Virus record (IMG/VR): IMGVR_UViG_3300044641_003548
Coordinates: 37,149 to 101,148 of that record
From: a virus
Length of the DNA: 64,000 bases
Strand: one strand, 5' to 3'
Part shown: positions 3,822 to 60,408 of the stretch, in pieces
How the letters are laid out: the number at the start of each line of letters is the position of its first letter
Position numbering within the stretch: position 1 is the first letter of the stretch
Notes under the pieces: generated by a model
Seen by the model: the letters and a program-made list of their open reading frames with translations, nothing else
What the model was told of the DNA's origin: nothing
Database searches by the model: none
Translations under genes and position numbers: made by a program

Positions 3822-4046
3822 TTAGCCACGAATTTCAAACGCAAATTCAGTGCCGGATCTAGTGACATAAATCTTACGGCCATAGACCGTAATGTAACCC
3901 CATTCACCGTCTTGGTAAATGTCGTGCGGATCCTTTTCAATAGTGACATTACGTACTATTTCACAGAAACCATTGCGCCATGTAGGCAATTTCTGCTTGA
4001 AATACTTGTCGTTGTCACGTTGAACAATAAAGATTTTTGATTTCAT
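3822..4046 (-). CDS. Duplicated small basic protein, copy A
   Basis: A 74-residue protein nearly identical to the one at 4843-5067, differing at about ten positions. It starts MKSKIFIVQRDND and ends GTEFAFEIRG; it is beta-rich by composition. An upstream in-frame ATG at 4061 lies inside the -10 region of the promoter, so the start is taken at 4046. That places the ATG six bases after TATAAT, at the predicted transcription start, with no room for a ribosome binding site. Function unknown. Confidence 0.7.
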   Translation of the reverse strand: MKSKIFIVQRDNDKYFKQKLPTWRNGFCEIVRNVTIEKDPHDIYQDGEWGYITVYGRKIYVTRSGTEFAFEIRG

Positions 4047-4842: not shown

Positions 4843-5067
4843 TTAGCCACGAATTTCAAATGCAAATTCAGTGCCGGCCCTAGTGACATAAATCTTTTTA
4901 CCATAGACTGTGATATAACCCCACTCACCATCCAAATAGATACCGTGCGGGTCTGGTTCAATTATGACATTGCGAGTAATTTCACAAAAACCGTTGCGCC
5001 ATGTAGGCAACTTTTGCTTGAAATAATTGTCGTTGTCACGCTGAATAATGAAGATTTTTGATTTCAT
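4843..5067 (-). CDS. Duplicated small basic protein, copy B
   Basis: A 74-residue paralogue of the protein at 3822-4046 (shared KLPTWRNGFCEI and GEWGYITVYG blocks). The two copies are separated by two unrelated genes, and each is preceded by the same promoter with the same six-base distance from -10 box to ATG. The duplication therefore includes the regulatory region. Function unknown. Confidence 0.7.
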   Translation of the reverse strand: MKSKIFIIQRDNDNYFKQKLPTWRNGFCEITRNVIIEPDPHGIYLDGEWGYITVYGKKIYVTRAGTEFAFEIRG

Positions 5068-17329: not shown

Positions 17330-17337
17330 GATAAATA
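17330..17337 (+). promoter_or_regulatory. Late-promoter-like octamer of the cargo operon
   Basis: GATAAATA on the plus strand, one mismatch from the T4 late consensus, 55 bases before the first cargo gene. The same GATAAATA variant precedes candidate virion genes at 46582, 53553 and 62214 on the other strand. Confidence 0.5.
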
Positions 17338-17392: not shown

Positions 17393-18823
17393 ATGAGAGC
17401 AAACGAATTTTTAATTGAAAATGTGTTAAATGAGGGTGTAGAATTGCCATATAAAGGCTATGTTATTAAAGCATTTACGCTTAAAAATTCCAACACTGCT
17501 AAAGCCTGGGTGGGTGATAGAAATGGTAACCAAGTTACTAATATAACAAAACTTTTTCCTGAGGTTGAAGTTGGATCTGAAGAAGAAGCAGTAGAAATTC
17601 AAAAACAAAAAATAGATGACTACACGAACACTAGTTCAGTAGTAACAAAATATTTTAAAACATATCCAAATAAAAATTTACAGAGCATTCTGCATTTACC
17701 TGATTATATTTATGCGGGTGTGGATTCAGGAGGCATTGTGTATATTAGTACAAAACCTCAACCCGGATGGTTAAAAAAAAGCGTAACATATGCAGATGGT
17801 AGTGGCACTGGTACACCTATTCATATAGACGATTTAAAAAAAGCTGGGCTTGAACCGGGTACTAGATATGAGGTGATAAGTAAAGAGGTTATGGATCCCG
17901 ATACAGTAGCACTAAAAGTAAAAGAATATAATAGAATAACACATAGCGGTGACAAAGATGATAATAGAGTACCATTAATAGTAATTCAAATGGCCGGCAG
18001 AAATAAAGGTGTGGGGGAAGCCGCAAACCCAGCACAACAAGCCGCTATTGCTATCAATATGAAAAAACATCATCAGAAACCTAAAAGTGAAGGCGAGCTA
18101 AATGAATTTGCTCCTAATAAGCCTCCCACAGGCGGTGGTGGCGGACCAAAAGATTATGGTAAACCTACTAGTTCACGTTATATAGGTGGTAACAAGTTTG
18201 TAGTAGGTACTACCAATAACTATGTGTTAACTGCAACAATAGACAAATGGGGATTAGAATGGGATGAAGATGATGAAATCTGGTTCTTAGATAGCCCCGG
18301 TGCCGCACATATTGCTGATGCCAGTGAAGGTGAAATAGAATTACCTCCACCAATGGAACAAAGAAATCAAATTCACGATTTAGTAACTGATTATCTCAAT
18401 GCTAGAAATTCTGCTGATTTACAAAAAGTAGCCGCATATTATGGTCATAGTGATGATGGTGAAATGGCAACAAATGAAGGTGAGAATTGGTCAAAGCACA
18501 ATAACAAACGTGTTGGCGGGATGAGCAAAAAATCTGTGAGTAGTTATCGCCGCAGTCACCCTGGTAGCAAGATTCAAACAGCAGTAACTACTAAACCTAG
18601 CAAACTTAAAAAGGGTAGTAAAGCCGCTAAACGCCGTAAGTCATTCTGTGCTAGAATGAAAGGTATGAAGAAAAGTAGAACAAGTGCCAAGACAGCAAGA
18701 GATCCAAATAGCAATATTAATAAGAGTTTACGTAGATGGAATTGTGAATCCATTGAGCAGATGGAAGAATTACTAATGCTTGCCGAACAAATGGTAGCTA
18801 AAGCTAGGAAAGAAATACTATGA
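17393..18823 (+). CDS. Candidate head-cargo protein with modular C-terminus
   Basis: A 476-residue protein starting MRANEFLIE-NVLNEG, a capsid-targeting-like leader with an L-I-E cleavage signature. Residues 15-200 form an unknown alpha/beta region; then a Gly-rich linker (PPTGGGGGPKDYG). The last 110 residues are very basic: VGGMSKKSVSSYRRSHPGSK, then SFCARMKGMKK and DPNSNINKSLRRWNCE. This cysteine-containing basic module recurs in phage and giant-virus proteins and may bind DNA. First gene of a seven-gene operon with no gaps. Confidence 0.7.
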   Translation: MRANEFLIENVLNEGVELPYKGYVIKAFTLKNSNTAKAWVGDRNGNQVTNITKLFPEVEVGSEEEAVEIQKQKIDDYTNTSSVVTKYFKTYPNKNLQSILHLPDYIYAGVDSGGIVYISTKPQPGWLKKSVTYADGSGTGTPIHIDDLKKAGLEPGTRYEVISKEVMDPDTVALKVKEYNRITHSGDKDDNRVPLIVIQMAGRNKGVGEAANPAQQAAIAINMKKHHQKPKSEGELNEFAPNKPPTGGGGGPKDYGKPTSSRYIGGNKFVVGTTNNYVLTATIDKWGLEWDEDDEIWFLDSPGAAHIADASEGEIELPPPMEQRNQIHDLVTDYLNARNSADLQKVAAYYGHSDDGEMATNEGENWSKHNNKRVGGMSKKSVSSYRRSHPGSKIQTAVTTKPSKLKKGSKAAKRRKSFCARMKGMKKSRTSAKTARDPNSNINKSLRRWNCESIEQMEELLMLAEQMVAKARKEIL

Positions 18824-20298
18824 ATTTTAAAGAACTATTTGAAGGCGCAGAGCCAAAAATGCCCGGAGCACCGAGTGGCATACAAATTATGACACCTCAG
18901 CAATTCGTTGCTAAAGCTGGTGATATGCCCGGTGAAAAAGAAGTTGACGAGGGAGTTCGTGATTTAGGTTATGATGCACAATCTCTTATAATGAAGTTGC
19001 GCCGTGATGTTGAAGAAAGAAGACTACAACCAACTAGAGAAGCAGTATTGGCAGCGGCAAGAGAATTAGCCGGTGACATGGATTTTGCTCCCGAACTACT
19101 AGTTCAACAAGTGTTGGGCAAAAGCGTAGCAGAAGGTTTAGACAGAATTCGCAAACTATCTGGATTAGATGAAGCAACTAAACTACCAGCAAGTAGCCGT
19201 GAGTTTGGTGGTGACGAGTTCCAAGACTACATGAAACGTATCATTGGTACTCCTGATGTTGATAAACAAGGTAATGTTAAGACTGACAAGAAGGGCAATG
19301 AAAAGTATGTGTCTGGTAAAACAAAGACAGACAGATATAAAATGCCTTACATACATCGTAGTAGTGTGATTGAATATTTAGGTCCTGATGGTCAAACATA
19401 TAATGAAGATAAAATCAAACAAGCATTGGCACAAAGACCAAAAGCATTATTAAAGCAAAACGAAAAGATGAAGCATAGTAACGGTGAATTAGAACAGTTC
19501 TTTAACGTTGGCTTTGCGGCATTGACTGGTATCGCATTGGATGAAGATACAAACAAACTAATCATTGTTAATACATGCCCAGGAGCTGGTTCATGTAAAA
19601 TAGATTGTTTTGCCATGAAGGGTGGTAAAGTTCAGTTCAAAGCCGCTTGGCAGAGTGATGGTCGTATACTAACATATCTATTGAATGACCCAGATGGTTT
19701 CTTCAGTCAACTAAGCAGTGAAATTGCCAAAGAAGAAAAATTAGGTCAGAAGGGTGGTTATACAGTAACCATTCGTTGGCATGATGCTGGTGACTTCTTT
19801 AGCCCAGAATACTTAGATTTAGCATTGAAGATGGCTGCAAAGCATCCTGATACTAAGTTCTATGCGTATACAAAGATGGCTGGTGCCGCGCTAGGTCAGA
19901 AACCACCTAACTTCATTATCAACTGGAGTGAAGGTGCTAATACAGGACAAGAGAAGCAAGTCAAAGCCAAAGATGCTAACTTAGATACAACTAAGAATAG
20001 TCGCATTGTTCCAGATGATTTGTTCCAAGATTTGTTAGTTAAGGACGAAAAGAAAAACTTAGTTAAGGGGTCAGAAGGCCAATGGCAAGTACAACCTAAC
20101 AAGTTACCTGAACTAAAGAATCGTCTTGCTAAAGAGTATGGACTAAGTGCTAACAGTATTCTAAACTATGATGAGTACATGGCTAAACGCAAATCTATCC
20201 CTGCAGGTATGAAGTACAATGTTATTGTTGCTCCTGGTGAAGGTGATATCAGTGCTAATGATCCTAACATCATATCTACATTACTATTGAAACACTAA
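18820..20298 (+). CDS. GP88-domain protein with cargo leader
   Basis: A 492-residue protein. It starts MNFKELFE-GAEP, ending in an L-F-E signature. Residues 30-135 form a helical region with further LxE sites (KSVAEGLDR, SGLDEATK). The C-terminal two thirds carry NTCPGAGSCKIDCFAMKGGK, then IRWHDAGDFFSPEYLDLALK and KFYAYTKMAG. That pattern matches the gene-product-88 domain of mycobacteriophages. The cysteines could bind metal. Its catalytic role is not established. ATGA overlap with the preceding gene. Confidence 0.7.
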   Translation: MNFKELFEGAEPKMPGAPSGIQIMTPQQFVAKAGDMPGEKEVDEGVRDLGYDAQSLIMKLRRDVEERRLQPTREAVLAAARELAGDMDFAPELLVQQVLGKSVAEGLDRIRKLSGLDEATKLPASSREFGGDEFQDYMKRIIGTPDVDKQGNVKTDKKGNEKYVSGKTKTDRYKMPYIHRSSVIEYLGPDGQTYNEDKIKQALAQRPKALLKQNEKMKHSNGELEQFFNVGFAALTGIALDEDTNKLIIVNTCPGAGSCKIDCFAMKGGKVQFKAAWQSDGRILTYLLNDPDGFFSQLSSEIAKEEKLGQKGGYTVTIRWHDAGDFFSPEYLDLALKMAAKHPDTKFYAYTKMAGAALGQKPPNFIINWSEGANTGQEKQVKAKDANLDTTKNSRIVPDDLFQDLLVKDEKKNLVKGSEGQWQVQPNKLPELKNRLAKEYGLSANSILNYDEYMAKRKSIPAGMKYNVIVAPGEGDISANDPNIISTLLLKH

Positions 20299-20666
20299 TG
20301 CTATCCAAAGAGTTTATTTTTGAAAATACAAATGATCATACTCAATTATGGCATGGAACATCTGAGCCAGCTGATGTTATTCAACAGCAAGGTCTAAGAG
20401 GTGGTAGACACCATGCAGTATTTTTAACAGATAATCCTGACTTAGCATTAGAGTATGCGGTGTCAGACCAAGAAAGAACTGGTAATGATTATGTAACATT
20501 AATCACAGTTGATGTAAATAAATTAGACCATAAAAAACTTGTAGGAGATTTGGATCATACTACAGTTGATAATTGGATTGACAGTTTAAAAGAAACAGAT
20601 CAATGTATGTATTTGGGTGATATATTACCTAATATGATTGTACAAGTTGAGGATTATACAGACTAA
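20298..20666 (+). CDS. ADP-ribosyltransferase-fold protein with cargo leader
   Basis: A 122-residue protein starting MLSKEFIFE-NTND, an I-F-E signature. The body reads LWHGTSEPADVIQQQGLRGG, HAVFLTDNPDLALEYA and ILPNMIVQVED. This is the layout of the ART fold of the Tpt1/PARP (H-Y) group: HGT in the first strand, then a [F/L]LTD strand with A-x-x-YA helix. T4 Alt, an injected ADP-ribosyltransferase, is a functional parallel. Substrate unknown; RNA phosphate transfer is an alternative. TAATG coupling with both neighbours. Confidence 0.65.
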   Translation: MLSKEFIFENTNDHTQLWHGTSEPADVIQQQGLRGGRHHAVFLTDNPDLALEYAVSDQERTGNDYVTLITVDVNKLDHKKLVGDLDHTTVDNWIDSLKETDQCMYLGDILPNMIVQVEDYTD

Positions 20667-21220
20667 TGCGTGACTTAATTACTTTACTTGAGGATAAGAG
20701 TAAACCCCAAGACATAGAAATCATTCCACTAAACTTTACTGAAGGTGAACTTGCACCTGTTCTTAGTAAAGATACAATAGAACTTCACTATGACAAACTA
20801 GCTAAAGGTTATGCTGAACGCTATAACAAGGGTGAGGGTGATAAGGATTTTAACTATGCAGGTGCATTTTTACATAATACATTATTCCCTCAGTTCCGTG
20901 AAGTGAGAAATAAAAATAATCCCAATGGTCCTATGATGGGCTTTATTAACAAACATTTTGGCTCATACGAATCAATGAAGGATCAGTTTGAAACTGAAGC
21001 AATGAAGATTCAAGGTAGTGGTTGGGTATACTTAGCAACTGATGGTAAGATTAAAACTATCAAGAACCATGAAGTACGCAATGACATACTGTTGTTAGTT
21101 GATTGGTGGGAACATGCCTGGATATTAGACTATGGTTCTGACAAAAAGAAATATTTGAAAGAACAGTGGAAGATTATTAACTGGAATGTAATCAATACAC
21201 GTTGGGGTAAGAGTCTATGA
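20666..21220 (+). CDS. sod: Fe/Mn superoxide dismutase with cargo leader
   Basis: A 184-residue iron/manganese superoxide dismutase, converting superoxide to peroxide and oxygen. All four metal ligands are visible: His41 in LHYDKLAKGY, His70 in FLHNTLF, and Asp146 and His150 in VDWWEHAW. The DxWEHAY-type signature is nearly intact. Unlike host enzymes, it has about 20 extra N-terminal residues starting MRDLITLLE-DKSK, ending in an L-L-E signature like the other cargo proteins. Packaging in the capsid is inferred. Confidence 0.9.
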   Translation: MRDLITLLEDKSKPQDIEIIPLNFTEGELAPVLSKDTIELHYDKLAKGYAERYNKGEGDKDFNYAGAFLHNTLFPQFREVRNKNNPNGPMMGFINKHFGSYESMKDQFETEAMKIQGSGWVYLATDGKIKTIKNHEVRNDILLLVDWWEHAWILDYGSDKKKYLKEQWKIINWNVINTRWGKSL

Positions 21221-21399
21221 ACTTAGACGAACTTAAAAGACTTGCTGGTGTAAATGATTATAGAGGAAAACCTACATCTTCTATTCCTATAGACCGTAGT
21301 AAGATTACTGCAAAGCCGGGCACTGATGAATGGTTCAAATCAATGTTCCCCGTTAATGATTTACATATGCCAGCAGGATTTAGAGGACGTAAGAAATGA
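21217..21399 (+). CDS. Small protein of the cargo operon (60 aa)
   Basis: A 60-residue basic protein, MNLDELKRLAGVNDYRGKPT and onward. Starts with an amphipathic helix LDELKRLAGV, a leader type also common among phage head proteins, but without the LxE signature. ATGA overlap on both sides. Unknown function. Confidence 0.6.
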   Translation: MNLDELKRLAGVNDYRGKPTSSIPIDRSKITAKPGTDEWFKSMFPVNDLHMPAGFRGRKK

Positions 21400-21950
21400 G
21401 AGCCACTGAGTTTATCACAGAAGCCAAAGTAAGTGTTAAGGATCAAATCATCAATGCTGTTAAGCGTGATGGTGGCAGACCAGAAGAATACTTTGTTCGC
21501 TTTACTGACATTGACCAGTTAGGCTTTAGTGCTAAACAAAAGTTTGGACGTAGTGTTGACATTGACCATCCAGACTATTATCCAGATTATATTGGTGCAG
21601 GCAAGGGTAATCCTGCATTGTGGTTCTATCCATTAAAAACTTATATAAATGATAATGACTTGTATGCTATGGAAAAGCCTTATGTTTGGTTAGTTAGATT
21701 AAAACCAAATGCATGGTTACAACCAGTTGATAGAAATACAACTGATAAACAAGAAGCACCACAAGGTAAAGAACGTGTGGGAATGATGAAAAATATCAGA
21801 CCTTTCCCGGCTGCAATTTTCTTTAAGCATGGATTCGATGTAGTAGGTAAATTCTATGACTATGGTAGTCAACATAAACGTCATGGAGAAGTTAAAGGTC
21901 CGTCAAAGGGTAAACCAAGTTTCTTTGATAGAGTTAGGGGTTATACATGA
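21396..21950 (+). CDS. Candidate head-cargo protein (184 aa)
   Basis: A 184-residue protein starting MRATEFITE-AKVSV, leader with I-T-E signature closely matching T4 internal proteins (MKTYQEFIAE). The body has EEYFVRFTDIDQLGFSAKQK and ALWFYPLKTYINDND, then YVWLVRLKPNAWLQPV. This alternation of strands and an LGF turn faintly recalls ADP-ribosyltransferase folds, but no catalytic motif is certain. Function unknown. ATGA coupling to both neighbours. Confidence 0.65.
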   Translation: MRATEFITEAKVSVKDQIINAVKRDGGRPEEYFVRFTDIDQLGFSAKQKFGRSVDIDHPDYYPDYIGAGKGNPALWFYPLKTYINDNDLYAMEKPYVWLVRLKPNAWLQPVDRNTTDKQEAPQGKERVGMMKNIRPFPAAIFFKHGFDVVGKFYDYGSQHKRHGEVKGPSKGKPSFFDRVRGYT

Positions 21951-22954
21951 GAGCTAATGAATTTATAATAGAACGCAAAAAATCTAGAAAAAAATCTAAA
22001 AGAATTCGCAGAACAGGAGGATATTATTTTCCTGGTTATGGCTACTACGGAGGTAGTGGAGAATCCGGTGAAGGCGGAGGTGATGGTGGCGGCGGAGAAT
22101 CAAGGTCAAGTGTGGCGGAAGGCTATTCAAACACTACATTTAATGTTGACCGTAGAAAATTAAATGTACCGGCTCTTATACAAAAGGGTGCGATATTAGT
22201 TACTCATCCTCACGGTGAACAAGGTTGGGAAACTGATGATAAAGAAGACTGGGCTTTTAGTTTACTATCATTATATAATGTTCTTCAAGGTGGATGGCCT
22301 AGTGAAGCTAAAAAGTATCTCAAACCTCAAAGCTATAAACGAGCAGAACAACAAATTAACTCTAGTGCGCCAAATCTAGGATCTGACAAATTAGTATATG
22401 ATGGAAAATATAATCAAATACTGTGGAGCATTAAAAAGCTAGGCATACCAGACAATGTAGCATTTCTAGATAAAGGTCAGCAAGGTGTCACAGAAGGCAC
22501 ACTAAGTGTAGACGTACCTAATGAGGATTGGTTACAAAGCAAGATTGACTATGCTAAAAAGCAAGGACGCAATAGTTATGGTGTACCATATATGGGCAGT
22601 ACTACAGCTTCAGTAAGAGGAACACCACCAAGAGTACGTGTAATGCGTTTGGCATCATTGCCGGGTATGCGCCATGAACAAACTAATGTCCGTAAAGCTG
22701 ACTTAAAGTGGTTGATGGATTATATGGAAAAGACTGGTAAATTACCACCCATGTCACACAGTCCCGATCACGAATATCTTCCATACATCATGGTTGCCTA
22801 CAACGGTGAAGCATGGGTCAACGAAGGCAATCATCGTATCATGGCTGCATACAGATTAAACTGGCAAGATATGCCTATTGAAATACGTTACTTTGACGGT
22901 GGTGAAAGAATCAAAGACGGGCCAATGTATCCGGGAAAGATTGGTTTAAGTTAA
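21947..22954 (+). CDS. Candidate head-cargo protein with ParB-like C-terminus
   Basis: A 335-residue protein starting MRANEFIIE-RKKSRKKS, leader with I-I-E signature. A glycine-rich stretch (about residues 25-55) precedes SSVAEGYSN; a second V-T-E-G junction occurs near residue 180. The last 100 residues contain EYLPYIMVAYNGEAWVNEG and NHRIMAAYRLNWQDMP, resembling the GxHR nucleotide-binding block of ParB/Srx-fold proteins. Last gene of the operon; its TAA shares TTAA with the opposing epimerase stop. Confidence 0.65.
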   Translation: MRANEFIIERKKSRKKSKRIRRTGGYYFPGYGYYGGSGESGEGGGDGGGGESRSSVAEGYSNTTFNVDRRKLNVPALIQKGAILVTHPHGEQGWETDDKEDWAFSLLSLYNVLQGGWPSEAKKYLKPQSYKRAEQQINSSAPNLGSDKLVYDGKYNQILWSIKKLGIPDNVAFLDKGQQGVTEGTLSVDVPNEDWLQSKIDYAKKQGRNSYGVPYMGSTTASVRGTPPRVRVMRLASLPGMRHEQTNVRKADLKWLMDYMEKTGKLPPMSHSPDHEYLPYIMVAYNGEAWVNEGNHRIMAAYRLNWQDMPIEIRYFDGGERIKDGPMYPGKIGLS

Positions 22955-45764: not shown

Positions 45765-46337
45765 TTATTGAAAGATATGATGGTTCTGTTCGCCGTAAAT
45801 TTTGATGTATTTGCCCGCAAGCATATCTGCCATTGCTTCAATTGGGCTACCTGGGTAACTATCACCCGGCTTAATCATATCTAGTTCACCTTGACGAACG
45901 TGAACTAATTCATGGAATACTGTACGTAGTATATCTACTAGGTTACGATTATTTACATATACCCAAATACTGTCAGCACCCATTTGATGACCACCGGTAT
46001 GATGATTATCTTGTGCTTCTTCAGTATCCATACTTAGTTCGATATGTGGCTTACTTTTTATATGTAAACGCTTACAAGCCCAATCACAGAATTTATCAAC
46101 TTCTTGTTGCAAATCAGAATCATCACCCTCATCTAATTTATGATTAATCCAATTATCAGGCGTTCTTTTATATTTTCTTACAAATAAGTCATGTAATGCA
46201 TTACCGCTCATACTATGTCGGTTGGCAATGCTTCTCATTAATTTGTCAATGGTATCATAGTCGTGTTTAGCTAATGAGGGTAGCTTTTTAGCTAACTCAT
46301 CTGCGGCTGATTCTGCTATAAAATTATTAGATATCAT
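45765..46337 (-). CDS. Zinc metalloprotease-like protein with cargo leader
   Basis: A 190-residue protein. VFHELVHVRQGEL carries the HExxH zinc signature, and the downstream PIEAMADMLAGKYI supplies a likely third ligand Glu, as in gluzincins. The N-terminus MISNNFIAE-SAADEL ends in the I-A-E prohead-protease signature (T4 IPIII has EFIAEA). A cargo role is inferred. It may cut host or virion proteins. Confidence 0.72.
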   Translation of the reverse strand: MISNNFIAESAADELAKKLPSLAKHDYDTIDKLMRSIANRHSMSGNALHDLFVRKYKRTPDNWINHKLDEGDDSDLQQEVDKFCDWACKRLHIKSKPHIELSMDTEEAQDNHHTGGHQMGADSIWVYVNNRNLVDILRTVFHELVHVRQGELDMIKPGDSYPGSPIEAMADMLAGKYIKIYGEQNHHIFQ

Positions 46338-50611: not shown

Positions 50612-50658
50612 TATATAGGGTATCCTTTTCTATTCCAATAAAATTCAAAATCTGTCAT
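50611..50658 (-). CDS. 15-residue coupling ORF
   Basis: Frame MTDFEFYWNRKGYPI. Its ATG overlaps the stop of the 749-residue gene (ATGA), and its TAA overlaps the dps ATG (TAATG). It thus bridges two genes by translation. May be a genuine micro-protein or a pure coupling device. Confidence 0.4.
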   Translation of the reverse strand: MTDFEFYWNRKGYPI

Positions 50659-52904
50659 TTGTTTTTTCCTTGACAATGTGCTTTTTGACTGAAGCCTTTA
50701 GGATTACTACAGTTGATACTGTCTTTGTACTTCTGTGACCACTTTTCATCAAGTTGATCTTCGTTCATTTGTTTCAATAATTCTTGTGCCTTTTCAACAC
50801 TAATCATATATCTACCAGTGCGATTTGGATCTGCGGCTTTTTGTAGATATTCTTTACTAAAGCCCTTTGGTGCTTCTGCAGCCGGCTTGTCATCAGACGG
50901 TGATATCACAGTTGCACTTGGTTTTAATCCACCAGTAAATCCACCTTGTCCATCAGGTGTTACACGACTATGAGCGGCACCGGCTCCTAGTGCCATTGAG
51001 CCTGCTAATGCGGCTGCGCCTAGTTTTTCTTTCCAACCTTCGTCCAAACCTTCGTTTGACTTTTTCTTAGTGTTAACATTGATTGCTTTACCACTACGCT
51101 CTGGATTAGGATCTTCTCTGCGCTTACGTTGAGCGGCACTAGCACGACCCTTCTTACCCAAGTTCTGCGCTTTACTTTGTGGTAAACACTTTGGTTTACC
51201 TTCACTATCATCACCTCTAGCACAGTCGCCTCGGATCTTGCCATCAGGACCAAAACGAACCCATTTTTCTTTGAACCATTTATTTAAGTTCTCATCTACT
51301 TGTTCAATACCTTCTAAGATAGAACTTTCATTCTTCTTTCCACCATTACCCCAACTGTCTGCGCCCTTCTTGCGGCATTTAACTAAAGCACCGCTAGCAT
51401 AAGCACTTGGCCATACTTTATAACGGCTCTTAACTTTATAGTAGCAAGCATCTTTCTTTTCGTTCATCAGTTCTTCACTGACCAATTCGCCACCGCAGTG
51501 TGGGCAATTATGTTGTTCTTTCACTACACCTTGCTGTTGTTTTTCTTTTTCTGCTTTACGCTGTGCGTAATATGCTAGTAACTTATCATCAGTTTTGGCT
51601 TGTACTTCTTCGTTCATATCATCTTTAGACCAACCGATATCTTTAATAAATTGCATCCAGGCTGCTACAGGTGGCATGTTAGCATACTTCATTATTGCTT
51701 GACCTTGATTGTCAGCGAGGTCTCGTAAATGTAGAAACTGTTCAATAGTATCTACTATACCTGCTCTTTTCAAACCACGATAACCATCTACATCATATTT
51801 TTTCAATCCCGAATTGGCAATGACTCTAGCATCATCACCTACTATATTACCAAACGGCATTGAACCTACGCTCTGTGGATCATAGTGAACCATATTACCT
51901 TTTTGTATTGCCATCAATGCTGAATGAACTAATTCTGTAAGTGATCCTTTATTTAGACTACTGCCAAAATTCTTTTGTTCTAATTTGCTCAATTGTCTTG
52001 CCAATGCAGGGCGCTGACTTTCATGTGCTCTATACAATCTCTTGTTGACTTCTTTTGACCAGTCTTCTAAGTCTTGTGATTCTTCTTGCCAACCCTCTGC
52101 TACACCTTCATTCTTCACACAGTTAGGAACAGTTTTGCCAAACATTTTTTTGTTACCTTCTTTGTGATATCCCTTCCAGCAGTTCTCATCTAACTCATCT
52201 TCATCAATGTCACGCATCATACTATGAACTGTGCCTGGCTTACCTTTAGGAATTTCACCTGTAGTACGACCAAACGGATCAGCTGGTAATTTTTTTGAAA
52301 CACCTTTTAGTCGTTGTGGTCTTCCTCGTTCGCCAGCGCCATCACCTTTATTAAGTTCTTTGTATGTACTTCCGGAAGTGTTAGCAGGAAGATCCATACC
52401 ATAATCACCACGTAGTCTAGCATCATGGTAATCGCTAAAATCATATCTACCTTCAGCCACACCTTCATCTACTAGAGATATAATAGCGTTAGAAAGATCA
52501 ACTCCAGTGGCGGCTTGTTGTTTACCAAATTTGATTAAGTTGCTACGACCCATAATTGGTTTAGGATTTAATGGCTTACCATCAATAGTAAGATTGTACA
52601 TTCTAAGTTCTCTAGGATCTTGTCCTGGTACATCTAAATCGTGGCGCTCATTATCTCGTTGACCACGACTAAAACCTGTGCGATTTGATTGATATTTGTT
52701 GTATGCTTCGTCTACTTCTTTCTTTTCGTCATTAGCAAATTGTTTCTTAGTTGCTTTAACAATGCCACTCATACGCTTGTCAGCCTTCTTAGTATCACCT
52801 GCCTTGTCAGCGGCAGTAGCATCAGCACCAGCGGCTTTTTTATATTGTCCTAACTTCTCATTAGACAATTCGTTTAATTGTAAACCTTTTAGAATATTGC
52901 TCAT
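50655..52904 (-). CDS. Large modular cargo-like protein (749 aa)
   Basis: A 749-residue mosaic. The start MSNILKGLQLNE has an L-N-E signature. Modules separated by E-G-V-A-E-G-like junctions (DEGVAEGRYD, NEGVAEGWQEE, DEGWKEKLG). They include YKVKSRYKVWPSAYASGALV (the SAYASGxLVKC module found in phages and giant viruses), a cysteine-rich DPDGKIRGDCARGDD-like region, and a C-terminal KYKDSINCSNPKGFSQKAHC. A CxxC pair (HNCPHCGGEL) could bind zinc. Likely a processed head protein. Confidence 0.65.
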   Translation of the reverse strand: MSNILKGLQLNELSNEKLGQYKKAAGADATAADKAGDTKKADKRMSGIVKATKKQFANDEKKEVDEAYNKYQSNRTGFSRGQRDNERHDLDVPGQDPRELRMYNLTIDGKPLNPKPIMGRSNLIKFGKQQAATGVDLSNAIISLVDEGVAEGRYDFSDYHDARLRGDYGMDLPANTSGSTYKELNKGDGAGERGRPQRLKGVSKKLPADPFGRTTGEIPKGKPGTVHSMMRDIDEDELDENCWKGYHKEGNKKMFGKTVPNCVKNEGVAEGWQEESQDLEDWSKEVNKRLYRAHESQRPALARQLSKLEQKNFGSSLNKGSLTELVHSALMAIQKGNMVHYDPQSVGSMPFGNIVGDDARVIANSGLKKYDVDGYRGLKRAGIVDTIEQFLHLRDLADNQGQAIMKYANMPPVAAWMQFIKDIGWSKDDMNEEVQAKTDDKLLAYYAQRKAEKEKQQQGVVKEQHNCPHCGGELVSEELMNEKKDACYYKVKSRYKVWPSAYASGALVKCRKKGADSWGNGGKKNESSILEGIEQVDENLNKWFKEKWVRFGPDGKIRGDCARGDDSEGKPKCLPQSKAQNLGKKGRASAAQRKRREDPNPERSGKAINVNTKKKSNEGLDEGWKEKLGAAALAGSMALGAGAAHSRVTPDGQGGFTGGLKPSATVISPSDDKPAAEAPKGFSKEYLQKAADPNRTGRYMISVEKAQELLKQMNEDQLDEKWSQKYKDSINCSNPKGFSQKAHCQGKNK

Positions 52905-52905
52905 A

Positions 52906-53529
52906 TTATTTCTTCTTGTTCTTGTTGTCTAACATGCCACGCTTGTTAGCTGTAGCCCAAGCAATGTTCTCTGCTTCGTCTTTACTCTTGCCTAATTTCT
53001 TTTCTGATTTTTCAATGTGCTTAACCATGCGGTCAACTTTAGCACCTTCAACTACTGATTCTTGTTGAATCCGTTTACCTTCTAAATATTCACGTATAGT
53101 GTTTAGATAATCATTTGCTTTGATAATCTTTTCTTGTACCCAACCTTCAAGTCCTTCATCTTCACTAACATCTTTAATCATAGCATAGACTTGTTGAGCA
53201 TTCTTTGCGGCACTGAACAAATCACTACGTGCCATTTCAACTTCGTGGTCTAAACGACTTTGGCCGTGTGGTACAAATCCAGTTTTCATTTTGCGTCCTT
53301 GTCCGGGAACTAAAATGATATCATCTTCTTGTAGGTCAGCTTCACTAAGTTCTGCGCTTTCATTGATGCTATTACCATAAGGGCCTTTTTTCTTTGATGC
53401 ACCACCCATTACTTTTTGTACGGGTTGTAGACCAGCAACTTGAGTTCTTGTTTGAGTTTTGCCTAATGGCATTGCTACAGTTGATACTGAGCCTGATGTT
53501 GTAGATTCTGATATTTCTGTGAAACGCAT
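52906..53529 (-). CDS. Candidate head-cargo protein (207 aa)
   Basis: A 207-residue protein starting MRFTEISE-STTSG, ending in an I-S-E signature, with further LxE/VxE sites (NESAELSEADL, SVVEGAKVDR). The C-terminus RMVKHIEKSEKKLGKSKDEA and NIAWATANKRGML is a basic helical module common in phage proteins. GATAAATA late octamer 23 bases upstream. Probably packaged and processed with the 749-residue protein. Confidence 0.65.
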   Translation of the reverse strand: MRFTEISESTTSGSVSTVAMPLGKTQTRTQVAGLQPVQKVMGGASKKKGPYGNSINESAELSEADLQEDDIILVPGQGRKMKTGFVPHGQSRLDHEVEMARSDLFSAAKNAQQVYAMIKDVSEDEGLEGWVQEKIIKANDYLNTIREYLEGKRIQQESVVEGAKVDRMVKHIEKSEKKLGKSKDEAENIAWATANKRGMLDNKNKKK

Positions 53530-53587: not shown

Positions 53588-54382
53588 TTATCGTTGCATT
53601 AATGATGCAATAATGTTGTCAATAAAATCAACCTGTAGAAAATCAGTTGTCAAAAAATCAACATCTAAAACTGATATAATTGCGCCTGTCGTTGCATTAG
53701 GAAGCGAACCTGTCTCCCACATAACTGATGGGTATGCATTACCGCCCGTTAACGGAGTTGTCATCGTTGTCCCCTGATTTATATTAAGCCAACCGCCCGG
53801 GGCATACAAAGTAACTATATTATTATTATTAGCTATTAAAAATTCAGGTTTAACTGTAGAAGTAATGATGCCGTAATATGTAGGATCCATCGACAAAACT
53901 GTAGGTTGACCTGTATTTGCGCCCAACACATTTAGAAATTCTTTAATAGTTGACCACCTGGTAAGTTCTGGAGAAGGTCCGGGTTGATTCAATCCAGAAT
54001 TTTCACCTAGCATGAACATAGAACCACCACCTTGAAGAAATGTAGTTAATTTACTAGTAGGATCCGTCAATGGATTAATGCTATATGGACTCACATAACC
54101 TATATCCCATACATGAGAATAGATACTCATGTCTGCTGGTAGATTGTCATATCCAACAATTAGTTCCGGCTCATATCCGGCAGCTATTTCTCTACTTTGT
54201 ATATTAGGATAAATTGCTGTTGCGGGATCTGGTGTACCGTACTCGGGATTATAAAAATCATTGTATACACCCCCTCCGGAATACACATAGGTAGTTGGAT
54301 CATAGAACACTAATACTTTAGTTTTTGTGATCCGACTTGGGGGTCTAAACCAAAATCCTAATCTACTCCCACCAAAGTTCAT
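53588..54382 (-). CDS. Tail-fibre-associated protein, amidotransferase-like fold
   Basis: A 264-residue protein coupled to the fibre gene by ATGA. TTFLQGGGSMFMLGENSGLN and STIKEFLNVLGANTG resemble the nucleophile-strand region of glutamine-amidotransferase or ThuA-like folds, but the nucleophile Cys is absent. Aromatic, Gly/Asn/Thr rich surface fits a virion protein. It may be a fibre tip, adhesin or chaperone. Confidence 0.6.
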   Translation of the reverse strand: MNFGGSRLGFWFRPPSRITKTKVLVFYDPTTYVYSGGGVYNDFYNPEYGTPDPATAIYPNIQSREIAAGYEPELIVGYDNLPADMSIYSHVWDIGYVSPYSINPLTDPTSKLTTFLQGGGSMFMLGENSGLNQPGPSPELTRWSTIKEFLNVLGANTGQPTVLSMDPTYYGIITSTVKPEFLIANNNNIVTLYAPGGWLNINQGTTMTTPLTGGNAYPSVMWETGSLPNATTGAIISVLDVDFLTTDFLQVDFIDNIIASLMQR

Positions 54383-57300
54383 GCCGCATATCCTGTTGTT
54401 AATGTAGCATAATATGTGCCGCCAATATTGACCATGTTAACCATGTCTACAGCGCCAGCTGTTGTACTTAGAGCTTTATAACCAGAAGCCCAAAGAACAG
54501 TACTACCATAAGTAGCAAGATACGGGGCTCCTACACCCTGTGTTATTATCAATGTAATACTCTGTCCTGATGCAACTGATGATATGTTAAAGAATGTATT
54601 AGCTGTCATTGTACATGTTTGAATAGTACCGTTGTTAATATTAATTGTAGTAGTGCCTGAAACATTACCCAAGTCGTAAATAGTATCACCTGCACTAGAG
54701 CCTGGAATAGTAACAGTAGCTATACCTGATCCCGGCGCTACTGTAGCCGTAACACCTAGACCAACAAAGTTAAGAGCACCAATTGAACTAACAAAAGGAA
54801 CACCCTCGTCATATACAGTAATACCACCATTTATTGTGATTGTTGCAACACCACCTACATTACTTGCTTCAACACCTGCACCTACAAAATTAAACGTATT
54901 AGTTGAACCAACTACAACGTTACCTTCATCTTGTATAATAACTCCGGGTATACCTGCAATATTAATTGTAGCAACACCACCTACATCACTTGCTGTAACA
55001 CTAGGGCCAACAAAGTTCAGTGTAGTAGCATTAGCTAATACGTTAGAACCTTCGTCTTGTACAGTAATACCAGTAATTTCATTGTAATAACTTATACCTC
55101 CACCTACTACGGCTGCATATCCATCTACTGCGGTAGTCCATGTCATTGTCAATGTGTTAGCATTTACAAAATTAATTGTTGGGAAATCATATCTTCCATT
55201 ATAAGAATTATTATTAGCATCAACTGGTTCTACTACAACATATGTTCTATTAAGATTGTGAGTTACTGTCCAAACATTACTTGCAACTGATTGTGTATGT
55301 AGATAATAACCTCCTGGAGTATTAGCTGTCCCGTCACTCCAACTTAAATTACCAGTACCGTCCGTAGTCAATACTTGTCCAGGTCCACCACCTGTAATAG
55401 TAACATTAGCATTTGAACCCAAGTTAGCTGTACTTGTAACTACAAAATTATTAACAGTTAATAATGTTAATGTCTCATCAAATGTGAATGTCGCATCACC
55501 ACCAAATGAACCATCATCATTGTATTGAACTTGTGTATTTGTACCGCCGGCTTCAAATGTAATTGTTGCCCAACCTAAATTACCTGCTCCGTCAATCGTA
55601 GCAATAACATCAAACGGATTACCACCGGTAATATATACGTTACCTAAGTCACCTAACTCAGTAATAGAAGTTACTGTTAAGTTATTTGCTGTAACTAATG
55701 TTAATCCCTCGTCAAATGTCAATGCTGGGTGACCACCTAATACGCCGTCATCGTTATACTGAATTTGAGTATTAGCACCACCTGCCTTGATGTTGCCAAC
55801 GTCACCTGCGGCTAAGTTAGCCCAACTTAGCGTGCCTGTACCATCGGTAGTTAATATATAATTAGCATTACCACCACCAATATATACATTACCAACATCA
55901 CCTAAGTTAGCTGTACTTGTTGCCGCAAAATTATTTGCTGTAACTAGTTGTAATCCTTCATCAAATGTAAATGCTGGGTGACCACCTATTATGCCATCAT
56001 CGTTATATTGAACTTGAGTATTTGCACCACCTGCTTTAATGCCAATTGTAGTTGCTGATAAATTAGCCCAACTTAGGTCACCAGATCCATCAGTGACTAA
56101 TACATAATTTGCACCGCCACCTGAAATGTGAATATTACCAACATTACCTAAACTAACGTTTGATGCTGATATAAAGTTAGCAGTAGTCGTAACAGCTAGA
56201 TTATTGGTTGTGAGTAAAGTATTTGAACTATTAAAAGTAAATCCAGCACTTGCACCAAAATTACCTGCATCATTGAATTGAACTTGTGTATTTGCTCCAG
56301 CTGGTATTCCATTACCTGCATTTCCGCCTGTTTGTGCTGTCCAAGTTAAATTACCTGCTCCGTCAGTTTGTAGAACATAACCATTAGTACCACCGGTAAT
56401 TGTAACATTACTAACTGCACCCAAGTTAGCTGTGCTAGTTGCTACAAAGTTATTAGCAGTAATTAATGATAATCCCTCATCAAATGTAAATGCTGGGTTA
56501 CCACCTAATATGCCATCATCATTATATTGAACTTGTGTATTTGCACCACCTGCCGCAATATTACCAGCACCGCCGCCGGCTAAGTTAGCCCAGGATAAGT
56601 TACCTGTACCATCAGTAGTCAATATGAAATTAGCGTTACCACCTGCGATATGTACATTACCAACATTACCTAAACTAACATTTGATGCTGTTGTAAAATT
56701 AACAGTACTATTACCAATAATATTATTTGCTGTAAACGTAGTAGTTGTTTTGTCGAATGTAAAACCAGCAACAGCACCAAAGTTACCTGCGTCATTAAAT
56801 TGAATTTGAGTGTTGGCACCTGCAACTTGTCCGTTACCCGGTAAGCCAATTGGAACACCCCATACTAAGTTACCTGTTCCGTCTGTCTGTAAGAAGTATC
56901 CGTTAATACCACCATCGATATGAACATTGCCAACGTTACCTAAACGAGTAATAGAGCTTACTGTTAAGTTATTAGCAGTAATTAATGATAATCCCTCATC
57001 AAATGTAAATGCTGGGTTACCACCTAATATGCCATCATCATTATATTGAACTTGAGTATTTGCGCCACCTGCGGCTACATTGGCAATACTATTACCACTA
57101 GTCCAACTTAAGTTGCCTGTACCGTCAGTTGTCAATACAAAATTAGCTGTGCCACCGTCAATGTGAACATTGCCAACGTTACCTAAACGAGTAATAGAAC
57201 TTACTGTTAGGTTATTAGCAGTAATTAAAGTAGTGCCTTCATCAAATGTAAACGCCGGGTTACCACCTAGTATACCATCATCGTTGTATTGAACTTGTGT

Positions 57301-60300
57301 ATTTGCACCACCGGCTGCAATATTGCTGGTTGCTGATAGATTAGACCAAGTTAGTGTGCCGGTACCGTCAGTTGTCAACACATAGTTAGCAGTACCACCA
57401 CCAATATATACATTACCAACATCACCTAAGTTAGCTGTGCTTGAAGCAACAATGTTGTTTGCTGTTAATGTAGTAGATGTTTTGTTGAATGTAAATCCAG
57501 CAACTGCACCAAAGTTTCCTTCGTCATTGAATTGAACTTGAGTGTTAGCACCAGCAACACTACCATTACCTGTGCTGTTACTTCCAGGAGCCCATGTTAA
57601 GTTACCTGAACCATCAGTTTGTAGATAGTAACCATTAGTACCACCTAAGATAGTTACATTAGATACTGAATTTAAATTAGATTTGCTACTTACAGTTAAG
57701 TTATTAGCAGTAATTAATGATAATCCTTCATTAAATGTAAATCCTGGATTTCCACCTAATATGCCATCATCATTATATTGAACTTGTGTGTTTGCACCGC
57801 CGGCAGCAAGGTTACTTGTAGCAGATAAGTTAGACCAGCTTAATGTACCTGTGCCGTCAGTTGTCAATACATAATTAGCTGTGCCACCTAGAATTGTAAC
57901 ATTAGCAACATCACCTAAGTTAGCTGTGCTTGTAGCAACAAAATTGTTAGCTGTTACTGTAGTATTAGATTCATCAAATGTGAATCCTGGATTTCCACCA
58001 AATATATCATTATCATTATATTGTACTTGACCATTTGCGCCACCTGGTGATCCGTTTCCACCTGCACCTGGAATAGTAATAGTAGCAACACCACCTACGT
58101 TACTTGCAACCACGCCTGCACCCACAAAGTTCATTATACTTGCTGATGTTAAAACATTGGCTCCTTCATCTCGCACAGAAAGTCCAGCTCCTGCATTACT
58201 CCAAGTTAAATTACCATTACCATTAGTAGTCAACACTTGACCTATAGTACCACCAGTAATAGTAATATTTGATACACTGTTTAAATTAGACCTGCCTCTG
58301 ACCAATAGACTACCGACATTTGCTGTACCAGAGTTACTTGTCCAACTGGGGATTCCAGGTAAAGTAAAATTACCATTATAATCTAGGTTTAATAAAGGAG
58401 TCCAACCGTTTTCATTTCCTGTAGTAGGTGATGTATTTGCAATACTGTCAATTATACTAAAACCAAATGCGGTTACAGGTACATTACCTGCGCCTGGTCC
58501 TATTGAACCATCTGCTATAATAAGTGCTTGATTGAAATTTCGTTCTTCATTTGTTAACGCTAAATATGCCGGGCCAGATCCTGTGTTTTGATATGTAAAT
58601 CCATAACCTGTGTTTATATTAGCATTTTGAACATTTCCTGGAAACATTCGTAAACGACCCCAAGCATCAGACACATTAGAAAAACCTTGATCGTATCCAA
58701 AATGTAGTTCTGAGTTTGCAGTAATATTACCAGGAGCTCTTAACCAACCAGTAGTTGAATCAAATGTAAAGCCTGAACTTGCACCAAAGTTTCCATTATT
58801 GTTATATTGTACTTGTGTATTAGAACCGGCTGGAGTACCATTAGCACCACTACCTCCACCAGCACTCCAACTTAAGTTACCAGCCCCGTCAGTTGTCAAT
58901 ACATAATTAGCAGTACCACCGGTAATATGTAGATTAGCTACGGCACCCAATGATACATTTCCACCATATAAACTAATGTTAGAAGGAACACGAACACCTG
59001 CAGTTGCTATCAAATCTAAATTAGTGCCTGAGGTAACTGTTGGTGTGTTTGAACCTGAACCAATAAAGTTAACAGCAAGAACATTACTACCAACAGTTAA
59101 ATTGCTAGTTGTTTTATCAAATGTTAAGTTAGAACTTGCACCAAAGTTACCACCATCATTAAATTGTAATTGTGTATTAGAGCCAGAAACTGCACCGCCA
59201 CCGGTAATTGTAATAGTAGCAACGTTACCTACATTACTTGCTGTAACACCTGAACCGACAAAGTTGATTGTATTTGCTGTGGCTAGTACATTAGTACCTT
59301 CTTCTTGAACCGCAATGCCACCAATACCACCGGCAATTGTAATAGTAGCAACGTTACCCACGTTGCTTGCAGTAACACCATTACCAACAAAGTTGATTGT
59401 ATTTGCTGTTGCTAGTACATTAGTACCTTCTTCTTGTACAGTGACACCACGAGCACGTGCTACCCAACTTAAGTTACCAGCACCATCAGTTGTCAATACA
59501 TAATTAGCAGTACCGCCACCTATAGTTATATTACCTACATTACCCAACAATACATCTGGATTATTTGTAGCAAAATCTACAACACCACCATTACTAGTAA
59601 ATGAGTTAGCGAATATAACGTTAGCACCTGTTAAATTGCCGCCTATAGCATTACCAACTACAATATTACCCGGCACACTTAATTCACCAATTGTTGAATC
59701 AAATGTAAAACCACTGTTTCCTCCAAAATTACCACTATTGTTGTATTGAATTTGAGTGTTACTACCACCCGGTACGCCATTACCACTACTGTTACCGCCG
59801 GGAATATTAATATAGGCAGTGTTACTACCAGTGACTGTAACTCCATCACCAGTAAATATTAGTTGTTGTACAGCATTAGATATTAAATTATTTCCATCAT
59901 ATATTCCAACGTTAGATAGGAATGTATTGTAAACATTGGTAACGTTAATAATGTTACCTTCATCAACCGGAAGTGCTTCATTTGTTACTAATGTATTTAA
60001 GAATCCATCAGGACCAACCACTGTATTAGCTGGGGTAGGTACAGTGAACTCAATTTGAGGTACTGGTTCAGGAATTTCATCATTAGGAACTACAAGATTT
60101 GCAGGATCTGGGAATACGGGTCCTGGAGGAAGAGGATTAGTACCTGTTCCCGGTCCCGGTACGATAGGGGGTGTTGGGCTAGATGCAGTAGTAGTAAGTA
60201 CAGGGCTTGTCGTAACTGTTCTTCTTACCTCTGGAGTAACCGATGACGTACTATTAGTTTGAATTTGATTTACTGATGGTCTAATAGAGGCTACTGCCGA

Positions 60301-60408
60301 AGTAACAGATGATGTACTATTAGTTTGAATTTGATTGACTGTTGTTGGTCCGGTAGATGTTACTGTCGGAGTAACATTTGAAGTAGTATAACTATTTGCG
60401 ATTGGCAT
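54379..60408 (-). CDS. Giant repetitive tail fibre (2009 aa)
   Basis: A 2009-residue fibre. A Ser/Thr/Pro-rich N-terminus precedes about fourteen repeats of roughly 70-110 residues. Each carries NTQVQYNDDGILGGNPAFTF-like strands, then GNVHIxGG and YVLTTDGTGNLSW. A second repeat type, VQEEGTNVLATANTINFVG followed by NVATITI, occurs at least six times. C-terminal block ends YYATLTTGYAA. Such fibres bind host receptors; modularity allows host-range change. DNA repeats follow the protein repeats. AATAAATA lies upstream. Confidence 0.85.
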   Translation of the reverse strand: MPIANSYTTSNVTPTVTSTGPTTVNQIQTNSTSSVTSAVASIRPSVNQIQTNSTSSVTPEVRRTVTTSPVLTTTASSPTPPIVPGPGTGTNPLPPGPVFPDPANLVVPNDEIPEPVPQIEFTVPTPANTVVGPDGFLNTLVTNEALPVDEGNIINVTNVYNTFLSNVGIYDGNNLISNAVQQLIFTGDGVTVTGSNTAYINIPGGNSSGNGVPGGSNTQIQYNNSGNFGGNSGFTFDSTIGELSVPGNIVVGNAIGGNLTGANVIFANSFTSNGGVVDFATNNPDVLLGNVGNITIGGGTANYVLTTDGAGNLSWVARARGVTVQEEGTNVLATANTINFVGNGVTASNVGNVATITIAGGIGGIAVQEEGTNVLATANTINFVGSGVTASNVGNVATITITGGGAVSGSNTQLQFNDGGNFGASSNLTFDKTTSNLTVGSNVLAVNFIGSGSNTPTVTSGTNLDLIATAGVRVPSNISLYGGNVSLGAVANLHITGGTANYVLTTDGAGNLSWSAGGGSGANGTPAGSNTQVQYNNNGNFGASSGFTFDSTTGWLRAPGNITANSELHFGYDQGFSNVSDAWGRLRMFPGNVQNANINTGYGFTYQNTGSGPAYLALTNEERNFNQALIIADGSIGPGAGNVPVTAFGFSIIDSIANTSPTTGNENGWTPLLNLDYNGNFTLPGIPSWTSNSGTANVGSLLVRGRSNLNSVSNITITGGTIGQVLTTNGNGNLTWSNAGAGLSVRDEGANVLTSASIMNFVGAGVVASNVGGVATITIPGAGGNGSPGGANGQVQYNDNDIFGGNPGFTFDESNTTVTANNFVATSTANLGDVANVTILGGTANYVLTTDGTGTLSWSNLSATSNLAAGGANTQVQYNDDGILGGNPGFTFNEGLSLITANNLTVSSKSNLNSVSNVTILGGTNGYYLQTDGSGNLTWAPGSNSTGNGSVAGANTQVQFNDEGNFGAVAGFTFNKTSTTLTANNIVASSTANLGDVGNVYIGGGTANYVLTTDGTGTLTWSNLSATSNIAAGGANTQVQYNDDGILGGNPAFTFDEGTTLITANNLTVSSITRLGNVGNVHIDGGTANFVLTTDGTGNLSWTSGNSIANVAAGGANTQVQYNDDGILGGNPAFTFDEGLSLITANNLTVSSITRLGNVGNVHIDGGINGYFLQTDGTGNLVWGVPIGLPGNGQVAGANTQIQFNDAGNFGAVAGFTFDKTTTTFTANNIIGNSTVNFTTASNVSLGNVGNVHIAGGNANFILTTDGTGNLSWANLAGGGAGNIAAGGANTQVQYNDDGILGGNPAFTFDEGLSLITANNFVATSTANLGAVSNVTITGGTNGYVLQTDGAGNLTWTAQTGGNAGNGIPAGANTQVQFNDAGNFGASAGFTFNSSNTLLTTNNLAVTTTANFISASNVSLGNVGNIHISGGGANYVLVTDGSGDLSWANLSATTIGIKAGGANTQVQYNDDGIIGGHPAFTFDEGLQLVTANNFAATSTANLGDVGNVYIGGGNANYILTTDGTGTLSWANLAAGDVGNIKAGGANTQIQYNDDGVLGGHPALTFDEGLTLVTANNLTVTSITELGDLGNVYITGGNPFDVIATIDGAGNLGWATITFEAGGTNTQVQYNDDGSFGGDATFTFDETLTLLTVNNFVVTSTANLGSNANVTITGGGPGQVLTTDGTGNLSWSDGTANTPGGYYLHTQSVASNVWTVTHNLNRTYVVVEPVDANNNSYNGRYDFPTINFVNANTLTMTWTTAVDGYAAVVGGGISYYNEITGITVQDEGSNVLANATTLNFVGPSVTASDVGGVATINIAGIPGVIIQDEGNVVVGSTNTFNFVGAGVEASNVGGVATITINGGITVYDEGVPFVSSIGALNFVGLGVTATVAPGSGIATVTIPGSSAGDTIYDLGNVSGTTTININNGTIQTCTMTANTFFNISSVASGQSITLIITQGVGAPYLATYGSTVLWASGYKALSTTAGAVDMVNMVNIGGTYYATLTTGYAA
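55300..59850 (-). repeat. Tandem repeats in the tail fibre gene
   Basis: Recurring DNA blocks within the fibre gene encode NTQVQYNDDG, GGNPAFTFDEG and VLTTDGTGNLSW. Unit length varies from about 210 to 330 bases. Copies near 56460-57300 are the most alike, suggesting recent expansion or gene conversion. Boundaries approximate. Confidence 0.7.

Follow-up and report, generated by a model that had tools for sequence, protein, structure and literature searches.

Why do the proteins of one phage operon, with otherwise unrelated bodies, begin with nearly the same few residues? The operon in question lies in a 64,000-nucleotide stretch of DNA (hereafter the window), bases 37149-101148 of the 101,148-base viral metagenome record IMGVR_UViG_3300044641_003548, which derives from an uncultured giant bacteriophage of fresh water. 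Seven plus-strand open reading frames (ORFs) at 17393-22954, all starting with ATG, overlap or abut one another, and six of the seven encode proteins with an N-terminal peptide ending in [L/I]-x-E. We consider it likely that these leaders work as in the capsid targeting of phage T4, that is, as T4-like propeptides on modular head cargo of a T4-related jumbo phage. A first-pass annotation of the window had described the six leaders, the gene overlaps, a late-type octamer ahead of the operon and two outlying leaders, MISNNFIAE and MRFTEISE. All ORFs, coordinates and N-termini were verified, the octamer is present and both outlying leaders are real (Table 1).

A leader joined to many bodies

The strength of the leader signal depends on how narrowly it is defined. 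The bare rule M-x(2-7)-[L/I]-x-E matches 19 of the 155 genes predicted on the 101-kb contig, against 8.4 in shuffled sequences. This roughly twofold excess is weak and close to noise, and we dropped the bare [L/I]xE motif as evidence; the [L/I]-x-E rule of the first-pass annotation therefore holds only in the narrower form MRA[N/T]EF[I/L]xE, which beats chance. E-F-[I/L]-x-E occurs in 6 contig genes versus 0.58 expected (maximum 4 in 2000 shuffles). A second rule, F[I/L]xE ending at residue 8-12, was derived solely from T4 internal proteins and finds 6 of 155 genes versus 0.27 expected (maximum 3 in 1000 shuffles). As a control, the loose pattern gave 14 matches in T4, including IPII, IPIII, gp21, gp22, gp24 and Alt, all gp21 substrates. 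Separately, T4 gp61.1 (L163:18966-19130, annotated hypothetical) starts MKTFKEFIKED, like an internal protein, and T4 gp2 starts MAIFQIINES; judging by these N-termini, both are possible unrecognised cleaved head proteins of T4.

For comparison, a search baited with gene 2 yielded 80 viral loci, to which three long relatives were added. Leaders in the relatives' loci occur on 60 of 136 unique genes in the operons around the gene-2 homologue, compared with 36 of 969 genes elsewhere (p = 5e-36). Chance N-terminal matches to a loose motif would suit the roughly twofold excess of the bare rule. For the specific signature, however, chance is refuted by the signature itself, by the way it clusters in one operon and by its reappearance across 80 loci, which leaves this explanation a negligible probability.

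The leader is a module carried by many different bodies. The 113 unique leader proteins from the 80 loci and three long relatives fall into 19 body clusters by single linkage. Allowing for one short cluster member, MKTAKQIADE, as a possible chance match leaves at least 18 distinct bodies, a conservative count given that multi-domain proteins were over-merged. The consensus, which covers 97 unique leaders, is M-R-A-[N/T]-E-F-[I/L]-[T/S]-E, mostly followed by A, S or G. Position 3 is hydrophobic in 95%, and the column information of 4.3 bits at E9 drops to 1.0, 0.5 and 0.7 bits in the columns just behind it, so that conservation ends abruptly at E9; positions 2 and 5-9 were partly pre-selected by the search pattern, while position 3 and the drop after position 9 are free of that selection. 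In T4 IPIII, residues 4 and 7 serve targeting and residues 8 and 10 processing (PMC9026906), and after a one-residue shift these correspond to leader positions 3, 6, 7 and 9.

In the 80 loci, homologues of the seven genes retain the leader although their bodies and the gene order differ. The 42 distinct N-termini of gene 2 homologues invariably have L or I at P3 and E at P1, with M, L, Y, H or F at P2. Eleven different N-terminal leaders, every one with a final E, precede the body SA[A/V]xxLxxxLP, which in one further case follows an internal VAE. The leader is also conserved as protein and not as codons: 66 leader peptides are encoded by 88 DNA versions, and MRATEFITE alone occurs in seven spellings. 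The alignment of homologues proposed in the first-pass annotation thus shows the leader to be conserved whichever body it precedes.

Internal borders and multi-module proteins

Bodies that directly follow a leader in one protein also occur inside longer proteins, where glutamate again precedes them. E stands before the mature start at 63 of 79 distinct borders, versus 6.3% of random positions in the same proteins, and [L/I/V/M]-x-E lies within three residues of the border at 52 of 79, versus 6.5%; the 79 borders are partly non-independent, as the DUF6321 module supplies many of them, and about ten different modules show the E. In gene 7, GVTE↓GTLSVDVPNEDWL (↓, predicted cut or border) corresponds to the stand-alone MRAKEFITE↓GTLSVDVPNEEWL, and in gene 1, GVGE↓AANPAQQAAIAI corresponds to MRITEFINE↓AANLAQQAAIAI. 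The simplest reading of this recurrence at internal borders, and of the match to stand-alone starts, is that fused modules keep the protease site.

Because their modules so often begin right after E, the long members look like processed polyproteins. Going beyond the first-pass annotation, genes 1 and 7 of the operon themselves look like such polyproteins, with internal cleavage-like sites. A linker of the form QGV[A/T/P/M]E occurs 19 times in four genomes and is nearly confined to long multi-module proteins; it is clearly enriched only in the relative G003 (10 versus 0.7 expected) and rare in the other genomes. QGVAE linkers are also present in relatives of two long multi-module proteins of the window, at 60458-62209 and 50655-52904, and a 2009-residue protein is encoded between these two, at 54379-60408 on the minus strand. 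We see even chances that the clade has a system of cargo polyproteins released by the prohead protease, with a uniform leader, QGV[A/T]E linkers and modules shuffled between stand-alone and fused genes. If so, it would let a jumbo phage load and release many separate head proteins from few genes.

The internal borders also bear on a different account of the leader, as another sorting signal (to a phage compartment or membrane) or as a common translation-start module that recombination has spread. Such an account would suit the shortness and recurrence of the leader, and one cargo family carries a Tat-like stretch behind it. But conservation as protein and not codons, its end exactly at E and the return of E at borders far from any start codon make this account very improbable. 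Chimallin, the sole nucleus-shell family searched, gave no match above the cut-off; a 12-bit match in gene 2, below the cut-off and absent in relatives, was rejected as chance. Capsid targeting followed by cleavage is the reading that we pursue below.

Table 1. Positions of the operon, its predicted cut sites and further leader proteins in the window.
Feature	Position	Strand	Basis
Octamer GATAAATA, probable late promoter of the clade	17330..17337	+	Sequence; sense-strand bias upstream of genes
Gene 1, 476 aa (amino acids): leader, novel N-terminal region, AANPAQQAAIAI module, DUF6321 module	17393..18823	+	DUF6321 2.8e-10
Gene 1 leader MRANEFLIE, predicted cut after E9	17393..17419	+	Chance tests, leader alignment
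Gene 1 internal border GVGE↓A, residues 206-210, ahead of AANPAQQAAIAI module	18008..18022	+	Elsewhere module directly behind leader
Gene 1 internal border ATNE↓G, ahead of DUF6321 module	18467..18481	+	Cyanophage homologues V[NS]E↓GAAW
Gene 2, 492 aa, GP88 domain; leader MNFKELFE at 18820-18843	18820..20298	+	Pfam GP88 4.5e-25
Gene 3, 122 aa, possible ADP-ribosyltransferase-type fold; leader MLSKEFIFE at 20298-20324	20298..20666	+	ART-PolyVal 0.033, below cut-off
Gene 4, 184 aa, Fe/Mn superoxide dismutase; leader MRDLITLLE at 20666-20692	20666..21220	+	Sod_Fe_C 2.5e-24
Gene 5, 60 aa, without leader	21217..21399	+	ORF, profile search
Gene 6, 184 aa, unknown body; leader MRATEFITE at 21396-21422	21396..21950	+	Five aligned members keep leader
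Gene 7, 335 aa: leader MRANEFIIE at 21947-21973, basic/Gly-rich region, C-terminal weakly ParB-like module	21947..22954	+	phrog_1033 0.0052
Gene 7 internal border GVTE↓G, residues 180-184, ahead of module TLSVDVPNEDWL	22484..22498	+	Stand-alone forms MRAKEFITE↓GTLSVDVPNEEWL, MRAHDFITE↓ATLSVDVPNEDWL
Second-site leader protein MISNNFIAE↓SAADELAKKLPS	45765..46337	-	Body kept behind 11 different leaders and one internal VAE
Further multi-module protein of this class, 749 aa, starting MSNILKGLQLNE↓LSNEKLG	50655..52904	-	Modules in common with phrog_727/3477
Leader protein MRFTEISE↓STTSGSVSTVAMPLGK, behind GATAAATA octamer	52906..53529	-	Sequence

For the 749-residue protein, a relative begins MKTNEFLTE↓LSNDKLGKY. 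Elsewhere, the window encodes a PstS-type phosphate-binding protein (62311-63318, minus strand; phrog_5385, 9e-63) and two small paralogues (3822-4046 and 4843-5067) with near-identical N-termini, MKSKIFI[V/I]QRDND.

Protease, capsid protein and probable late promoter

A propeptide of this kind calls for a gp21-type prohead protease, for which the first-pass annotation had proposed a search. All six relatives of at least 230 kb carry a Peptidase_S77 (gp21) gene (1e-27 to 3e-29) beside a gp23-type capsid gene (about 1e-99). With T4 as positive control, neither gene was found in any of the shorter relative fragments. In three relatives, G001, G003 and G008, the genes follow the T4 order of small core proteins, gp21, a gene in the gp22 position and gp23. 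The relatives' protease retains the T4 gp21 stretches GE[LV][ND]HP and GVSSRG, and their capsid protein has QLLAE↓S (SLLAE↓S in G008) aligned with the T4 gp23 site FLTE↓A. The closest long relative, G001, shares 113 of the 155 contig genes at a median identity of 74%, with 87% for DNA polymerase, and its protease is therefore a fair proxy for that of the window's phage. Among cultured phages, the nearest proteases belong to Sinorhizobium phage Phosso (61%) and the PA5oct group (54%, PA5oct against G001).

The GATAAATA octamer lies 63 bp before the gene 1 ATG. Across the window's phage, G001, G003 and G008, it occurs upstream of genes 104 times in the sense and 16 times in the antisense orientation; for the T4 control octamer TATAAATA, the counts are 11 and 3. 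GATAAATA is probably the late promoter variant of this clade, where T4 uses TATAAATA. Its sense bias and its position before gene 1 are consistent with late expression, which head cargo needs.

In the mechanism that we propose, the N-terminal 8-10 residues would act as a capsid-targeting propeptide that brings the protein into the prohead scaffold core. The gp21-type serine protease would then cut after [L/I/V]-x-E and free the mature protein inside the head, and multi-module members would be cut a second time, at their [V/L/I]-x-E linkers (in many cases QGV[A/T]E), into separate modules. From leader, protease and border sites together, we strongly infer packaging and cleavage. The mature cargo would remain with the DNA and, by analogy with the T4 internal proteins (IPs) and Alt, probably enters the next host alongside it, to act before phage gene expression.

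Proposed cargo, virion proteomes and known systems

Superoxide dismutase (SOD) and GP88, both named in the first-pass annotation, were recovered by Pfam profile search, as was DUF6321, whereas its ADP-ribosyltransferase (ART) and ParB labels correspond to weak matches only. Gene 4 has all four metal ligands of the SOD family, H, H, D and H, which the alignment places in IELHY, AFLHN and VDWWEH. The N-terminal extension of gene 4, MRDLITLLE↓DKSKPQD, is absent from bacterial SODs and kept in close relatives; a 59%-identical SOD starts MYDIVERINE↓S. Gene 3 scored 15.4 bits against ART-PolyVal, below the curated cut-off of 31.2 (E 0.033), and is not assigned to that family; it also matched PADLOC PDC-M42A (9e-4), and its AlphaFold2 model was unusable (predicted local distance difference test, pLDDT, 38). 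The gene 6 model was moderate (pLDDT 62), its top fold matches being PARP/ART domains and not significant. The gene 7 module is ParB-like solely by its weak phrog_1033 match. A clear ART-PolyVal domain (4.7e-14) stands under the same leader in G003, and GNAT acetyltransferases, a GH19 chitinase, an LRV-repeat protein and a DUF6267 protein occur behind it elsewhere. A search of an anti-defence library returned nothing strong. In the GH19 chitinase-like cargo (L058:9956-10585, also L062 and L064), the leader MRASEIIAE is followed directly by the Tat-like stretch DLTRRGFLGAMGAGAA, as if the protein were to be exported after cleavage.

From these matches, we infer that the SOD would counter oxidative stress and that ART-like, GNAT and ParB-like proteins would act on host or DNA targets. 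The same proteins might instead be targeted to the prohead and cleaved as structural parts of core, neck or inner shell. The DUF6321 module lies in the neck/terminase cluster of cyanophages P-SSM2 and S-B43 and is annotated 'structural protein' in S-B43, and several bodies are basic, low-complexity and non-enzymatic. However, enzymes with intact active sites (SOD here; GNAT, GH19 and ART domains elsewhere) and highly variable gene content point to optional cargo, and the clade's known structural genes are located elsewhere; we therefore regard a structural role as unlikely and continue with injected cargo.

Cyanophage virions provide support for packaging. The virion proteome report on S-CREM2 (PMC10665884) names four non-structural virion proteins besides the lysis group: a SAM hydrolase, an APH-like kinase, a cytidylyltransferase and Cas9. 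The first three begin MKDFDSFLEE, MKRFDAFLTE and MKNFSSFLTE, respectively. Cas9 (gp12, L173:7704-10313) has a leader-like RFASFMAE↓A after 17 extra residues and is possibly head-delivered. Small proteins 13, 15 and 136 likewise carry T4-like leaders. In S-SM1, the cytidylyltransferase T4-GC190, which is reported from virions (PMC3037559), starts MKKFSAFLNE. The excerpts of the S-CREM2 and S-SM1 literature do not raise a link between leader and virion enzymes.

Several points weigh against the reading as head-delivered cargo. The support from virions comes from cyanophages, this clade being known from sequence alone. The S-CREM2 association between leader and mass-spectrometric detection among non-structural proteins (p = 0.007; first 150 kb, two endolysins outside) was obtained with a pattern loosened for cyanophages before testing, and the S-CREM2 authors could not exclude contamination by non-structural proteins; the leader on these enzymes is an independent argument for packaging. 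PA5oct, tried as a second mass-spectrometry test, was negative: in its first 200 kb, no F[I/L]xE leaders occur among the flagged proteins, and looser patterns are not enriched. Searches of the window's own 101-kb contig found neither the head protease nor the capsid gene, because the contig is a fragment. No leader was found at the N-terminus of gene 5, which starts MNLDELKRL. At internal borders, V at P3, or an E offset by three residues, is as common as L/I. The notion of an injected arsenal is further weakened by the weak assignment of several cargo functions.

Three aspects are novel: the leader set is large and uniform, an SOD is among the proposed cargo, and the fused members resemble polyproteins. 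Few injected phage proteins are known, because they lack a common fold. Such proteins act ahead of all phage gene expression, and with a leader that can be recognised in the sequence they become traceable in cyanophages and in jumbo phages that have not been cultured. If the system of cargo polyproteins exists as outlined above, the leader would in general allow injected phage effectors to be predicted from genomes. It also directly explains 'odd' virion-proteome enzymes that authors could not tell from contamination. Neither a superoxide dismutase carried in the head nor polyproteins cut there would be cargo of a kind known before.

The closest known counterpart is T4. IPI, IPII, IPIII and Alt share the 8-10-residue leader (K/R)-x-hydrophobic-x-E-F-[I/L]-x-E on unrelated bodies, together with a gp21-family protease and gp23-type capsid protein (both known here from sister genomes), a late-type promoter and an ART-like member. 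Unlike T4, the clade has several cargo genes per operon, a near-uniform MRA[N/T]EFI leader and multi-module proteins with internal sites; its cargo includes superoxide dismutase, GP88 and DUF6321, and the leaders reside in uncultured jumbo phages. The ejection proteins of phiKZ and SPN3US (gp175/gp245 processing) are similar in that propeptides of many head proteins are cut after x-x-E by a gp21-related protease, but several of these propeptides exceed 100 residues and the short uniform leader is absent. PA5oct (Arenbergviridae), a jumbo phage with a related protease, has a 37% identical SOD flagged by electrospray ionization tandem mass spectrometry (ESI-MS/MS) in its record, whose N-terminal extension, however, ends IAE↓AAS, outside the F[I/L]xE type. 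Cyanophages S-CREM2 and S-SM1 place T4-like leaders before non-structural virion enzymes, and cyanophages also carry the DUF6321 module; their consensus is MKxFxxFLxE, in contrast to MRAxEFIxE here, and their leader genes are scattered.

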